A stretch of DNA of 64,000 nt from Muribaculaceae bacterium (GTDB lineage Bacteria > Bacteroidota > Bacteroidia > Bacteroidales > Muribaculaceae): the NCBI GenBank assembly GCA_910573745.1, contig CAJSYI010000013.1, positions 1 to 64,000 of the forward strand. The letters run 5' to 3'. A model generated the notes under the pieces. The model searched no databases. It had not been told where the DNA came from and was given only the letters and a program-made list of their open reading frames with translations. Of this stretch, positions 45,794 to 51,312 are shown piece after piece; within the stretch, counting starts at the first letter, position 1, and each line of letters opens with the position of its first letter. The translations under genes were made by a program, and so were the position numbers.

Positions 45794-45838
45794 CCACTGT
45801 CCGGAACCTTTCGGGGCGTGTATGCGTTGGAAGTTCAG

Positions 45839-46933
45839 ATGATTGACACACGGTTACGAAATACACGCTTCATTGCCGCGTTCCTCGCGGCTGCGACAAT
45901 GCTCTTTGCATTGTCGGCATGTGCCGTGCCGGCAAAAAACCAAACCACCGATGATATGAACACAAAAGAGATATTTCTTGCAGGAGGATGCTTTTGGGGC
46001 ACCCAGCATTTCTTTTCCATGGTCCACGGTGTGGACACGACCCAGACCGGATATGCCAACAGCATCGTGCCCGACCCGACATACCGGCAAGTCTGCACTG
46101 GACGCACCGATGCGGCGGAAACCGTGCGGGTGGTCTACAATCCAGATTCCGTGTCGCTTCCGTTCCTTCTCGACCTTTTCTATAAGACTATAGATCCGAC
46201 AAGCGTAGACAGACAAGGCAACGATGTAGGGTCGCAATACCGTACAGGGATTTTCTATACCGACAAATCTGACTTGCCTGTAATAGAAAAGTCTATCAAG
46301 GAGTTAAGCCTAAGATATACTGAGCCTATCGCAATCGAGGTTGATGAGCTCAAAAACTTCTATCCTGCCGAAGATTATCATCAGGACTATCTTGACAAGA
46401 ATCCCGGAGGCTATTGCCACATCAATCCGGCTCTTTTCAAAATCGCCAGAGAAGCCCGCGACACTGCCACAATCAGTCTTCGGTCGCGCTACCGCAAGCC
46501 CAGCGACGAAGAGCTACGAAACCGTCTTTCCGGCCTGCAATACGACGTAACGCAGAATTCGGCCACCGAACGACCTTTCTTCAATGAATATGACCGTGAG
46601 TTCCGCCCTGGGATCTATGTGGACATCACCACTGGACAACCGCTCTTCCTGTCTACCGACAAGTTCGATTCCGGCTGCGGGTGGCCTGCATTCAGCAAAC
46701 CGATAGATTCCGCCTTTCTGACCGAAACTGCGGACAATTCCCACGGAATGACACGTACGGAGGTGCGTTCATCAATAGGAGACGCACATCTCGGACACGT
46801 GTTCCCCGACGGGCCTGAGGAGACCGGAGGCCTGCGCTATTGCATCAACTCGGCATCACTGCGTTTCATCCCGAAGGATGATATGGCCAACGAAGGATAC
46901 GCAGAGTTCCTGCCCCTCCTGAAAAACCAATAA
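45839..46933 (+). CDS. msrAB: Fused methionine sulfoxide reductase MsrA-MsrB lipoprotein
   Basis: The start at ATG 45839 gives 364 residues with a lipoprotein signal ending ALSAC; GTG 45818 would add 7 residues before it. MsrA (about 45-200) has the catalytic Cys in GGCFWG and [18 protein letters not shown]. MsrB (about 215-355) has [27 protein letters not shown] and the resolving Cys region [14 protein letters not shown]. MsrB lacks the usual zinc CxxC pairs. It repairs oxidised methionine (S and R forms) in periplasmic proteins. Confidence 0.94.
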
Positions 46934-46934
46934 C

Positions 46935-47080
46935 CTGGTATCCGTGAATTTTGAAGAACCACACAATCCACATTTACCGTATTGCAGAATAACCAACAAT
47001 GGTCGGTCTGGTATCCGTGAATTTTGAAGAACCACACAATCCACATTTACCGTATTGCAGAATAACCAACAATGGTCGGT
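46935..47080. repeat. Family C repeats 1 and 2: perfect 73-bp tandem duplication
   Basis: Two identical 73-bp units (46935-47007 and 47008-47080) begin CTGGTATCCGTGAATTTTGA and end ATGGTCGGT. Each contains GAAGAACCACAC. In reverse complement they match the copies at 47689-47750, 47764-47823 and 51217-51284. Confidence 0.9.
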
Positions 47081-47200
47081 GTGGTTCTTGTGGATTTTTT
47101 AACAATCAAATAAACCTTTCTTGTGTAAATCGATGTGGTTCTTGTGAATTTTTAATAACCACGGGAACCAGAAAATGGTCGATGTGGTTCTTGAAATCGG
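47081..47200. repeat. Degenerate family C pieces
   Basis: Three copies of the core GTGTGGTTCTTG or ATGTGGTTCTTG followed by an A/T-rich tail occur near 47080, 47134 and 47180. They face the core in the tandem units, so GAAGAACCACAC and GTGTGGTTCTT can pair into long hairpins. Confidence 0.6.
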
Positions 47201-47238
47201 ATTTTTGTGAAACAGCATAAAATATCGGAAATATTTCC

Positions 47239-47246
47239 TAACTTTG
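47239..47246 (+). promoter_or_regulatory. -7 box (TAACTTTG) before the GxxExxY gene
   Basis: A perfect -7 box lies 18 bases before ATG 47265. No -33 box was found at the right distance. Confidence 0.5.
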
Positions 47247-47264
47247 TAATTATTCTTTTTTGTT

Positions 47265-47633
47265 ATGAAAGATTTGATATACAAAGTAAAAGGATGTTGC
47301 TTAGACATACATCGGGTTCTCGGCCCCGGTTTGTTTGAAAAAGTCTACCAAACAGCCTTGGTTTACGAATTGCGGCAGTCTGGATTCAATATCAAGACAG
47401 AAGTCAAAATTCCGATTATATACAAAGGAATCAAGATTGACGAAGGTTTCCGCGCTGACATCATTGTTGATGACAATCTCATAGTCGAATTAAAAGCAAT
47501 AGAAAGCATAAACCCAATACACCATGTCCAATTAAAGACATATATGGCTCTCTCCGGCATTCCGATGGGGCTGCTTGTCAACTTCAACACGGCCAACCTG
47601 TTCAAAGACGGCATTTATTCTTGGCATCTATAG
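47265..47633 (+). CDS. GxxExxY protein, PD-(D/E)XK nuclease superfamily
   Basis: The 122-residue protein shows the naming motif at G22-E25-Y28 (GPGLFEKVYQ). A PD-(D/E)XK-like core follows: D65 (GFRADIIVDD), then E75 and K77 (LIVELKAIE), with a closing helix (HHVQLKTYMALSG) and the strand GLLVNFN. It is the usual size for the family, whose biological role is not established; the fold suggests a nuclease. The gene is AT-richer than its neighbours. It lies between oppositely oriented family C repeats and 218 bases upstream of the AlbA_2 gene, suggesting a mobile or repeat-associated cassette (inference). Confidence 0.88.
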   Translation: MKDLIYKVKGCCLDIHRVLGPGLFEKVYQTALVYELRQSGFNIKTEVKIPIIYKGIKIDEGFRADIIVDDNLIVELKAIESINPIHHVQLKTYMALSGIPMGLLVNFNTANLFKDGIYSWHL

Positions 47634-47688
47634 CTACTATGCAGACAACCACTGTCTCCGTAGTTTTAAAAAATCCACATAAACCACA

Positions 47689-47823
47689 CCGACCATTTAT
47701 AGATTTACTCAAGTTATGGTAATCGTGGTTCGTGTGGTTCTCAAAAATACACAGAAACAACATCGACCACTGTTGGTTAGCCTGAAATACGATAATCGTG
47801 GTTCGTGTGGTTATTCAAAATAC
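47689..47823. repeat. Family C repeats 3 and 4
   Basis: Two diverged units (47689-47750 and 47764-47823) each begin GACCA and end with CGTGGTTCGTGTGGTT and an A/T-rich tail. They are inverted relative to the tandem units at 46935-47080, so the GxxExxY gene is enclosed by inverted copies. Confidence 0.8.
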
Positions 47824-47851
47824 ATTTATTAACATCATAAACTAATTTATC

Positions 47852-50800
47852 ATGAAGTATGAAATCGGCAAAGAGTACATTTTCGGCTCCAAAGAATTTA
47901 TCGCATCGCGAGAGACCGGGAAACTTTATTTCATTATCGGCGAAAACGGATCAGGGCAGACTTATAAGGTTACGCCCTTCGATTTCCAGATTTCCGACAT
48001 ACCTGACCAGATTGTCTGCGTATACAAAGAAAACGACCGTTTCGAGCAGACACTGGGAAGTGTCCTGAATAAAATTTACAGAGTCGGGGATATATATGAA
48101 TTCAAAGTGCTTCGCAACAACCCCATGTCCCTTACATTGAGGGACGAGCTCAATGGAATCACACACAACCGAATCTCACTTCCGAAGACGCGGCTTAGCC
48201 GTTTCGACAAGATTGCATGCAGCGTGGCTGCAATAGACGGGGACATACTTCAGCTCGAATATCTCGGCTCACGCAACAGAAAGTCCAACGACTTCTTTTC
48301 ACCCGATGACCTGTTGCGGTTCGACTATCTGAAAGACAAGCCGTGGACGAGGGTTGCGCCACGCATCATGCAGAGCGTGGCATTGGCCGAAGCCCGTGAA
48401 TCCATCGACGCCGGAGAATCCGAATGGCTTCTTATTGCCGTCAACTCCATTCTGCGCTACATACCCCAATGGCTAAGCGAGGCACCCGGCCGTCGCCGCA
48501 TATGGCTCAAGCGCACAGCTGAAGCCTTGCGTGCCGTGGCAGAAGGCAGCAGATACATAATGACCTTCCCCAAAAAGAGCGGACGTGGCTACAAGGCACG
48601 TGAACGTCTGGCCGCAGCCATACAGCAATTCGAGAACTATTACGCAGCCGCCAGGCTCGTTGTCCAGGGCGATGCCGAAGAGATGATAGAACAGACGCTC
48701 CAAGCCATGCGCGAATCGGGATGGATCTACAAACCGTTTGAACGGATGGGCGTAATGATGGGCATACTGAGCATCGCGCCTCAGTATTCACACAGCCACA
48801 TCTCCGAAATATTTGAAGTGATCAAGACTCGAAGGCTCAACCCTAAGTTCCTGAGCATGTTCGGCGACTCTTTCCGGGGAATGCTAAAAGACTATATCGA
48901 GAACCGCCGCGCACTCCTCAACGCATCCGACCGCACATCGATGCGAGAACTCGCCGAGGCCATAGCAATCGAACTCCTGCTTACTGCCGACGGTGAATTC
49001 GACCTCTGGGACAGCCATCGTGGACTATTATATGTGATTTCAGCCATAATCTCAGGAAAAACCGACGGACAGGCCACGTCAATGGCTCTTCGTTCGTTTG
49101 CCGGAATCAACGACACTCCTCTGGAATTCGGATGGGACGACCTCGCAGAAATCAACCGCGTATGCTATCATCTTCTCGACCATCAGGACGCACCCCACTG
49201 CTCCGAAAGCGCGGTATTCGAGGGAGAGGACGTGAGAATACGCATAGCCGACAAGAAGATAACCCTCTCTCCCGCATGGCTCGACTCTGAAATGAAACCC
49301 GTCTTCAAGCGCAACGTGGCGGGCAACATACAGTTCTGCCTGCGTCTGCCGTCGCGACTGAACCAGAACACCGAAACGGCAGACATCAACCTAACACGCC
49401 ACCATCTGCTCTGGAACGAGATTTCCACCGGTCTGCATGAAAAAGGGATGCCAGTGCATCAGCTGAAGACATACAACGGACTGAGGGTGAATTCGGAAGT
49501 CGAGATAATAGTTACCGGACAATGCCCAGACAACAAGTTCAGCTTCGAATGCGTAATTCTCGGCGACGAAAACGAAGCCGCCGGTGTGCTGCCCATCACT
49601 GAAATAGTGCCTTATCCGGTAGGAATAACAAACGCGCAAGACATATTCTGCGACGACGGAAAGGCGATGGTGCTCGATGCGGTGGTCAACGACATACTCC
49701 CGGACGGACGTTTCGCGCTATCCATGAAGAAGTTCGTGATGGAGCAGAACGCAGCCGACGCACGCAAAGACCTCGAAGACAGCATTGAGGTGCTGGCGAT
49801 GATATCCGACCTTCGCGGCACACAATACAAGGCCACCTCGGACGAGGGCTTCGGGCTCCTCATCTCCAAAAACGAGGCCCAGCTCGAAATGAACGACCTC
49901 ATATACGTGAGAATAAACAATGTAAACCATCGCCATTCAGATCAGAAACTATACATAAACGCCAATTTCCTGGAAAAGGCCAACCCTGCGGAAGACAGCG
50001 AACTCGCCGAAATAGCTGATCTCAACAATCTGGACTTCGCCCGCAAATGCCTGCACGAACTGCTCAAGTTCCTGTCAAACGACCGCCGACACGAACAGAT
50101 TCCTGAACCTGAGGCGGAGGAACCAGACAACGAATCCGACGACGAAGAAGAGACCCTGTATCTACGCCCCGAGGCCGTGGCCGACATATCAATGCTTCTC
50201 GAACAATGCGCGGAAATACACCGTTCCGACCTCGTAGGATGCTACACCGACCTTGCCGCAGCCAAAGTCCTCAGCGAAGCCGTAGGAGACGGCATACGTT
50301 CGGCCACGCTTGCTCTGAAGATGCGTCTACAGGAAAAGCTGTCAAGATTCGCAAAAGACGGCCGTCTCGACCTGGTGGAAACACGAGGCCTGCTCGAAGA
50401 GTGCCGAAAGTCAAAGGTCATGACGCACGACATGGCCGCCAAGATGAAAATAGTGGGAATCCTTGCCGGACTCGACAACCAGGCATTCCTCGACCGCACC
50501 GTAAGCCGTGCCGAAGCGGCCAAAGACGAACACATCTCACGCCTGCGCTCCCTTGTCGGCGCCTACAACATGCTCGAAGGTCTCGGAATAGCCAAAGTGC
50601 GTGCCGAAATCAAAGAAGAAATCTTCTCGCTCCTTAAACTGCCTTTGCCGCGCATCGACAAAAACCGCCTCAGCGTGAGCGAAGACATGTATCATGAGTT
50701 CAAGACATCGCTGATATATCCGGCCGACAACAACATGCGTGCCGACGACAGGAAACAAGGAGAAGTCATAGTGCAGACCATAGCCTCGTTCCTGAACTCT

Positions 50801-51181
50801 GACGGAGGAATACTGTATATCGGAGTGGACAATGCGGGATATCCGAAGGGACTCGACGGAGACTTCCGGTTCCTCTCCCACGGAGCCGACAACTACGACA
50901 TACGTGAGGTTCAGGACAAATACAACCTTATGCTACAGTATCATCTGCGACGCCTGATAGGAGTTACCGTAGACGGTCTTTCCCTCTTCCCCGACTTCAT
51001 ACGCATTGAATACGAACAGATAGACAACATATGGATATGCCGCGTGATAGTAAGTCCTTTCGAAGGCACTGTGCTCTTCAAAGACAAGCGCCTCTTCATA
51101 CGAAAAGAAGGGGAAAAGAACGAAATCAAAGACCCGAAGGAATACCGCCGATTCATCGAACGCAGAAAATCCTCCAAATGA
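47852..51181 (+). CDS. Large protein with S1-like segments and Schlafen-type AlbA_2 domain
   Basis: The 1109-residue cytoplasmic protein has no membrane helix. Residues about 1-150 and 530-640 have S1/OB-like patterns (VNSEVEIIVTGQCP, AAGVLPITEIVPYP, DGRFALSMKKF). Most of 160-470 is helical. An acidic linker lies at about 751-770. Residues about 940-1085 form an AlbA_2 domain: E944 and E949-F-K951 (SEDMYHEFKTS), IASFLNSDGGILYIGVDNAG and a C-terminal RLFIRKEGEKNEI. The acidic/Lys pattern resembles the Schlafen nuclease core. An RNA-binding or RNA-cleaving role is inference. It lies between family C repeats and just after the GxxExxY gene. Confidence 0.72.
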   Translation: MKYEIGKEYIFGSKEFIASRETGKLYFIIGENGSGQTYKVTPFDFQISDIPDQIVCVYKENDRFEQTLGSVLNKIYRVGDIYEFKVLRNNPMSLTLRDELNGITHNRISLPKTRLSRFDKIACSVAAIDGDILQLEYLGSRNRKSNDFFSPDDLLRFDYLKDKPWTRVAPRIMQSVALAEARESIDAGESEWLLIAVNSILRYIPQWLSEAPGRRRIWLKRTAEALRAVAEGSRYIMTFPKKSGRGYKARERLAAAIQQFENYYAAARLVVQGDAEEMIEQTLQAMRESGWIYKPFERMGVMMGILSIAPQYSHSHISEIFEVIKTRRLNPKFLSMFGDSFRGMLKDYIENRRALLNASDRTSMRELAEAIAIELLLTADGEFDLWDSHRGLLYVISAIISGKTDGQATSMALRSFAGINDTPLEFGWDDLAEINRVCYHLLDHQDAPHCSESAVFEGEDVRIRIADKKITLSPAWLDSEMKPVFKRNVAGNIQFCLRLPSRLNQNTETADINLTRHHLLWNEISTGLHEKGMPVHQLKTYNGLRVNSEVEIIVTGQCPDNKFSFECVILGDENEAAGVLPITEIVPYPVGITNAQDIFCDDGKAMVLDAVVNDILPDGRFALSMKKFVMEQNAADARKDLEDSIEVLAMISDLRGTQYKATSDEGFGLLISKNEAQLEMNDLIYVRINNVNHRHSDQKLYINANFLEKANPAEDSELAEIADLNNLDFARKCLHELLKFLSNDRRHEQIPEPEAEEPDNESDDEEETLYLRPEAVADISMLLEQCAEIHRSDLVGCYTDLAAAKVLSEAVGDGIRSATLALKMRLQEKLSRFAKDGRLDLVETRGLLEECRKSKVMTHDMAAKMKIVGILAGLDNQAFLDRTVSRAEAAKDEHISRLRSLVGAYNMLEGLGIAKVRAEIKEEIFSLLKLPLPRIDKNRLSVSEDMYHEFKTSLIYPADNNMRADDRKQGEVIVQTIASFLNSDGGILYIGVDNAGYPKGLDGDFRFLSHGADNYDIREVQDKYNLMLQYHLRRLIGVTVDGLSLFPDFIRIEYEQIDNIWICRVIVSPFEGTVLFKDKRLFIRKEGEKNEIKDPKEYRRFIERRKSSK

Positions 51182-51216
51182 CAATGTTTTAAAACCCACA
51201 GTTTTAAAATCCACGG

Positions 51217-51284
51217 CGACCACATAAACCATCCTTTGGTTAGCCTGTAATTCGGCCCCCGTGGTTCGTGTGGTTCTCCAAAAC
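51217..51284. repeat. Family C repeat 5, right border of the cassette
   Basis: GACCACATAAACC, then TTGGTTAGCCTGTAATTCGG and CGTGGTTCGTGTGGTTCTCC match units 3 and 4 in the same orientation and units 1 and 2 in inverse orientation. It lies 36 bases after the AlbA_2 gene stop. Confidence 0.8.
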
Positions 51285-51285
51285 A

Positions 51286-51312
51286 CAGGGCGCGACCGGA
51301 AGTCGCGCCCTG
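51286..51312. terminator. Bidirectional terminator
   Basis: Perfect 11-bp GC-rich stem CAGGGCGCGAC/GTCGCGCCCTG with a 5-base loop, between convergent AlbA_2 and tricorn-like genes. Confidence 0.8.

Follow-up and report, generated by a model that had tools for sequence, protein, structure and literature searches.

Insertion sequences and miniature inverted-repeat transposable elements (MITEs) share terminal inverted repeats, with a gene between the ends and short gene-less derivatives. Free-standing homing endonucleases are nuclease genes between conserved genes, with one site repeatedly occupied. One MITE of Cardinium derives from IS982 (PMC9769881). In REPIN/RAYT systems (hairpin-forming doublets of repetitive extragenic palindromes, REPs, and REP-associated tyrosine transposases), inverted doublets of short ends are hairpin-like, intergenic and scattered, and are tied to a particular gene; several groups can occur per genome, and tandem arrays are found (PMC3116915). 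Intervening sequences (IVSs) of 23S rRNA with an S23 gene measure approximately 0.4-0.5 kb, carry one small gene and are acquired horizontally (PMC4990558). Features of these systems recur in an element at approximately 46935-47826 of a 64,000-nt stretch (the window) of contig CAJSYI010000013.1 from a Muribaculaceae bacterium (assembly GCA_910573745.1), in which a small gene of the GxxExxY family, encoding a predicted nuclease, lies between inverted repeat arms.

This gene and its arms are somewhat favored to be a small mobile unit of a widespread class, in which the nuclease would be the mover. The reading builds on direct observation of the anatomy of the loci, of presence, absence and exchange at one site, of agreement between repeat words, and of gene-less copies. 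Most likely, the mobile system is akin to REPIN/RAYT, with a minimal RecB/Cas4-type PD-(D/E)XK nuclease in the place of the HUH transposase. It resembles REPIN/RAYT in each of the respects named above, but differs in that its gene is of the PD-(D/E)XK RecB/Cas4-like type rather than a tyrosine (Y1 HUH) transposase, its ends consist of words arrayed in a pattern and not of single REP palindromes, and the repeats accompany the gene itself when it is gained, lost or exchanged. As the defining Y1 HUH transposase is absent, the GxxExxY system is not a REPIN/RAYT member.

In the window, the GxxExxY gene (47265..47633, + strand, 122 amino acids) was identified by family match, AlphaFold2 model and fold match. 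Its open reading frame (ORF) matches TIGR04256 (GxxExxY; E 2.4e-40) and PF13366 (PDDEXK_3; E 2.1e-39) in profile searches, and a score of 137.5 bits against the curated TIGR04256 cut-off of 35 makes it a family member; an earlier note on this DNA had rightly recognized a PD-(D/E)XK-like GxxExxY protein. Repeat search found two identical (100%) 73-nt units on the - strand to its left (46935..47007 and 47008..47080, spanning 46935-47080) and two units to its right (approximately 47660-47824), the left and right copies being mutually inverted. The outer left arm (46945..47054, 110 nt) is 78% complementary to the outer right arm (47715..47824, 110 nt; repeat and motif search), whose two units each hold CGTGGTTCGTGTGGTT, and the inner left arm (47071..47102, 32 nt) is 94% complementary to the inner right arm (47666..47697, 32 nt). 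Extra partial copies at approximately 47071-47193, absent from the count of the earlier note, include degenerate words on the left side (47125..47193; repeat search).

Similar surroundings are widespread among GxxExxY genes. A scan of public genomes yielded 80 loci, the best 80 of at least 580, leaning to close relatives of three proteins. Arms were assessed over 500 nt on each side in 69 of these loci, eight lacking full flanks and three containing runs of N. The two flanks matched in inverted orientation with a score of at least 30 at 47 of the 69 loci, compared with 2 of 120 shifted windows from the same contigs and 9 of 69 flank pairs taken across loci. Shifted windows here and in the end-motif and four-helix-bundle tests below probably come mostly from coding DNA, whereas part of the GxxExxY flanking sequence is intergenic; the pairs taken across loci compare like with like. 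Like insertion sequences and MITEs, these elements have terminal inverted repeats. Of the 80 loci, 41 have the motif TAACCRCRR on the left and 38 have YYGYGGTTA on the right, against four and three of 272 control windows, respectively. Across 111 of 160 flanks, chosen by end motif, the arm is laid out as word, 2 nt, word, 5 nt, word, 2 nt, word and GGTTAA, with words such as CTTTGCG, CTTTGTG, CTCTGCG, CTTCGTG and CTCCGTG. Arms often terminate in GGTTAA, and flank autocorrelation is modestly higher at lags such as 9, 12 and 21. Single look-alikes were found outside Bacteroidota in Anaerolineae (L181), Planctomycetota (L153) and a cyanobacterium (L180), while an example from Acidobacteria (L182) has no clear right arm.

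The words of the two arms agree within an element. The distance between left and right word profiles was 1.945, against 3.352 after shuffling (sd 0.122; none of 2000 shuffles as low; 73 of the 80 loci), and word distance grew with protein distance across the same loci (r 0.294; 0 of 2000 permutations). Kinship and base composition could contribute to this agreement, so copies were compared inside four many-copy genomes, using 29 of 30 fetched loci drawn from 52 matches listed, with arms not preselected for matching. An element's own flanks scored at least 26 in 24 of 29 cases, compared with 18 of 184 comparisons between copies in the same genome, and the own pair outscored all others of its genome in 19 of the 29. 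It is thus well supported that each GxxExxY copy has private words. Over all pairs within genomes, protein identity also correlated with flank similarity (r 0.685; 0 of 3000 permutations). As in REPIN/RAYT, the repeat type is tied to its own gene, judging from the word agreement across loci and from the radA site described below, and more weakly within single genomes once near-identical copies are removed.

Gain, loss and exchange can be followed at a site next to radA. Bacteroides finegoldii (L220) carries a clear element, 478 nt in total, that separates radA from the gene that follows, and G592, which belongs to the genus of G116, is 98% identical to that record. Among 99 genomes of this genus, at least 16 hold a GxxExxY gene at the radA site. 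In 30 aligned species, the site is occupied in 16 and has gene-less gaps of 4 to 90 nt in 14, 12 of them without any arm-like stretch and two (G546 and G156) with an arm remnant. Trees were built from 28 of 30 fetched loci (G542 and G535 could not be resolved) plus two further loci, the 'host' tree representing the two flanking genes only. In the approximately unbiased (AU) test, three pairs of sisters with good support on the flank tree are rejected by the nuclease data (1.6e-50, 4.5e-17 and 3.5e-5), and the flank data reject the clade defined by words (AU 1.7e-65); the groups tested were chosen with the trees already in view. Word type, assigned by eye, changes five times on the flanking-gene tree and once on the nuclease tree, and presence or absence changes seven times. 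Words follow the nuclease tree and both conflict with the flank tree, indicating that gene and words travel together and apart from the flanks; exchange of the GxxExxY gene and its words as one unit at this site is therefore well supported. The radA site of L226 (G220), from a neighboring genus, likewise holds a GxxExxY gene, whose words differ once more.

Copies of the ends also occur without the gene. In 197 Bacteroidia genomes, a search restricted to CTTTGYG-type words gave 910 matches to the end pattern, compared with 107 for the backward control, and three or more matches were found in 44 of the 127 gene-carrying genomes and in 5 of the 70 others (Fisher 1.1e-5, uncorrected for kinship). 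The arrangement of these ends was evaluated for 109 listed matches in seven genomes; by eye, the other listed genomes had no neighboring ends within 160 nt. Neighbors within this distance formed nine outward-facing pairs, 70-90 nt apart, and one inward-facing pair. A further 14 faced the same direction, nine of them spaced 125-155 nt as in tandem arrays. Gene-less inverted doublets of approximately 100 nt are scattered in many genomes. As in REPIN/RAYT, such dispersed doublets could form hairpins, to a degree that varies from a single-strand fold z of -5.9 in unit L191 to between -0.05 and -2.0 in the window units. Behind the corresponding gene, L191 was not found in G599, G618 and G620; the genome it comes from holds additional copies at other positions. 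One genome without a GxxExxY match, G112, has 56 end matches (C4, C5 and C10), some in 151-nt tandem arrays, which may be relics or have a different driver.

The regular spacing of the words and their agreement within an element would also be expected of an operator array, in which the GxxExxY protein would control host genes or its own expression by binding the words, and spread would be passive, by homologous recombination. This explanation is very improbable, as the nuclease and its immediate flanks have conflicting trees and the many gene-less doublets call for an amplifier.

Several results weigh against a nuclease-driven mobile unit. Inverted arms scored below 30 at 22 of the 69 loci, and the flanks reached 30 in direct orientation at 19 of 69. 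Five of the 70 genomes without the gene still hold at least three ends. The window units lack a clear TTAACC end and have weak single-strand folds (z -0.05, -2.0, -0.9 and -2.0), pointing to the window copy as a worn one. When two near-identical copy pairs are left out, the within-genome correlation of protein identity with flank similarity falls to r 0.351 (127 of 3000 permutations reaching it); private words therefore stand firm, while the sharing of words by close proteins within one genome is weakly supported. The elements resemble insertion sequences and MITEs in having a gene between inverted ends and short gene-less derivatives, but they differ in carrying no known transposase domain and in that target-site duplications were not found, the empty alleles compared being wholly different or too diverged. 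Neither an excision product nor transposition was seen. In addition, the exchange at the radA site, between G510 (with element) and G543 (without), replaced the gap as a whole (476 vs 81 nt), which fits recombination or homing too.

This pair of genomes also speaks for the main rival, namely a free-standing homing endonuclease that cuts element-free alleles in or near the flanking genes, so that repair copies the gap, with the arms serving a regulatory or protective purpose. The last 375 nt of radA are identical in G510 and G543, and beyond the swapped gap the first approximately 225 nt are 0.91-0.96 alike before identity returns to 1.0, as if a tract had been introduced there by copying. Homing also fits the presence of an element at this one site in at least 16 of the 99 genomes and the conflict between nuclease and flank trees, and the position of a nuclease gene between conserved genes recalls known homing endonucleases. 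However, homing leaves unexplained why the same word stands in both arms and why gene-less doublets are scattered, and matching word arms on both sides with dispersed gene-less ends set these elements apart from free-standing homing endonucleases. Homing is thus considered unlikely as the whole explanation, though homing into element-free alleles could form part of the same mechanism.

RecB/Cas4-like PD-(D/E)XK nucleases are characterized by a pattern of D, ExK and QxxxY motifs. In the GxxExxY protein, E25, D65, E75, K77, Q89 and Y93 are conserved; D65, E75, K77, Q89 and Y93 are invariant in 54 fairly close sequences, and among 21 more varied ones E75 is invariant and D65, K77, Q89 and Y93 are kept at 90% or more. 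The AlphaFold2 model of the window protein (predicted local distance difference test, pLDDT, 94.8) has 4ic1 as its closest solved fold, though no Foldseek match reached E 0.001, and 4ic1 is also the best sequence match, a weak one (E 0.038). This structure, the Cas4-type nuclease SSO0001, differs in size (approximately 200 amino acids, against approximately 122) and is 21-25% identical. Motifs and modeled restriction-endonuclease-like fold together place the protein with RecB/Cas4-like enzymes, and nuclease activity is predicted. Under the REPIN/RAYT-like reading, this small nuclease would bind its own words at both ends of the unit and cut there, possibly where exposed single strands fold into hairpins, after which host repair or replication would paste or copy the unit, mostly into intergenic gaps. 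The same nuclease would move the gene-less doublets (approximately 100 nt), which come to lie scattered and sometimes in tandem, as is proposed for RAYTs and REPINs.

The GxxExxY gene is common in Bacteroidia, with matches in 127 of 197 genomes at E 0.001, 125 of them above the cut-off. Carriage by phages, plasmids or viruses was considered and rejected: one query found no match in 50,697 phage records (E 1e-3) and eight in 72,556 plasmid records (E 1e-5), one of which (H2) carries thrA and radA and looks chromosomal, and none of 32 stretches of viral contigs that fit the patterns of a narrow query was a relative. The defense-like role suggested by the earlier note likewise found no sign in its favor in these phage and plasmid searches. 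The family is not confined to bacterial chromosomes, as the replication and repair genes listed for an algal virus include one for a GxxExxY protein (PMC12085832). Within the open-access literature, the GxxExxY name was found in two papers only, each time in passing, and no description linking them to repeats was found among the matches listed, most subscription journals lying outside the search. If GxxExxY genes do belong to mobile elements, a stock of dispersed Bacteroidota repeats would have one explanation, and a nuclease keeping step with changing repeat words would amount to a natural experiment in DNA recognition. The system would also offer an independent parallel to REPIN/RAYT for asking why genomes retain such repeats, and it hints at mobile DNA of a kind little noticed so far in bacterial chromosomes.

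On its right, the window element is followed by a gene for a 1109-amino-acid AlbA_2 (Schlafen-type) protein (47852..51181, + strand), which the earlier note had joined with the nuclease into one mobile or defense-like RNA/DNA-targeting module. The two genes are adjacent in this single genome, and repeats do surround them as described there: an inverted pair on the left, a pair between the genes and one on the right, the last being a gene-less unit behind the AlbA_2 gene (approximately 51196..51288, + strand; repeat and motif search; single-strand fold z -2.0), to which the uncounted partial copies are added. However, AlbA_2 orthologues in G004 and G033 (57% and 56% identity) adjoin msrAB without the element. 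This methionine sulfoxide reductase gene (45818..46933, + strand; family match) is the resident left neighbor in the window and has the same order in both genomes; its spacing to the AlbA_2 gene is 143 nt in G004, 107 nt in G033 and 918 nt in the window, and searches of G004 and G033 found no GxxExxY match. The AlbA_2 gene is therefore a resident neighbor, and the insertion at the window locus consists of the GxxExxY gene with its inverted repeats, leaving the AlbA_2 gene outside. With inspected GxxExxY genes elsewhere having other neighbors, and genes and repeats not conserved together, the joint cassette was rejected and is scarcely credible. The alternative offered in the same note, of a module that is mobile or of repeats linked as a family to the nuclease, is supported: gene and repeats come, go and are exchanged as one, with words that match inside each element and shift from one nuclease clade to another. 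For the large protein, the C-terminal SLFN_AlbA_2 domain was recovered (residues 944-1092, E 9.9e-11), but the proposed S1-like segments were not, this domain being the sole family listed in Pfam and NCBIfam searches. AlbA_2 genes form a diverse family, with matches in 37 of 61 genomes of the genus and many frames of 1100-1440 codons (including L082-L100).

The repeat had also been thought to occur nowhere else in the window, and this holds at up to three mismatches, with six matches to CGTGGTTCGTGTGGTT, all at this locus (0.58 expected; none of 100 shuffles reached six). Over the whole genome, however, the window repeat has 13 matches with at most one mismatch, 10 of them on other contigs (three on C2, one on C11 and six on C21), and the copies on C2 and C21 stand as arrays. 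GxxExxY matches in this genome number two, on C13 and C33 only; copies on C2, C11 and C21 thus exist apart from the genes, an outcome that the earlier note had itself named as refuting its proposal. One array (L048; G000:C21:8000-18000) holds six copies approximately 101 nt apart without a GxxExxY gene; its neighbors, named by eye, are an ABC-F-like gene on one side and a transposase-like ORF on the other. The second GxxExxY gene (L042; G000:C33:16863-17189) has quite different repeat words, of the GGGGACTACGG type, and its protein is 61% identical to the window copy.

A further explanation places the element at the RNA level, with the arms pairing in a transcript, as in a 23S rRNA IVS processed by RNase III, or forming an RNA antitoxin of a type III toxin-antitoxin system. 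The long inverted arms would suit such a role, and so would the S23 genes, which show a parallel pattern and whose protein is known from a 23S rRNA IVS (PMC4990558). It is nonetheless quite improbable: read on the coding strand, arm mismatches are G-U in 115 cases and A-C in 135 (68 elements; per element, 18 vs 35). A coding-strand RNA stem or antitoxin is accordingly disfavored, there being no preference for G-U and, if anything, the reverse; an A-C excess would be G-U on the opposite strand, so that an antisense RNA may be involved. Compared with the 23S rRNA IVS, GxxExxY elements belong to another protein family, lie between protein genes at inspected loci and show arm mismatches that do not indicate coding-strand pairing.

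Four-helix-bundle genes of the S23 type (TIGR02436) match in 46 of 61 relatives, many of the matches weak and partial. Their loci have inverted arms scoring at least 30 in 15 of 25 cases, against 0 of 50 shifted windows, and their flanks show a sharp 7-nt period (lag 7, 0.343 vs 0.258; 46 flanks from 23 loci). As two small protein families share such surroundings, a local oddity is unlikely. A tentative extension, judged rather less than probable, is that GxxExxY elements make up a new mobile-element class in bacteria, with a minimal Cas4/RecB-like nuclease as the sole mobility enzyme encoded. This nuclease would read an evolvable code at the ends, keeping the spacing while it re-learns each re-spelled word, so that many mutually blind families could share one genome, each with gene-less followers; the S23 genes would represent a second, independent system of the same logic, with a 7-nt period. 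S23 inverted repeats with a 7-nt period occur among L053-L078, for example L063, L069 and L078. Cyanobacteria contain heptanucleotide short tandemly repeated repetitive (STRR) sequences, to which the S23 repeats are possibly related. In two Flavobacterium columnare genomes, a four-helix-bundle gene is listed at one and the same position, between the genes for guanylate kinase and nicotinate-nucleotide adenylyltransferase (PMC5524665), a fixed site comparable to that at radA.

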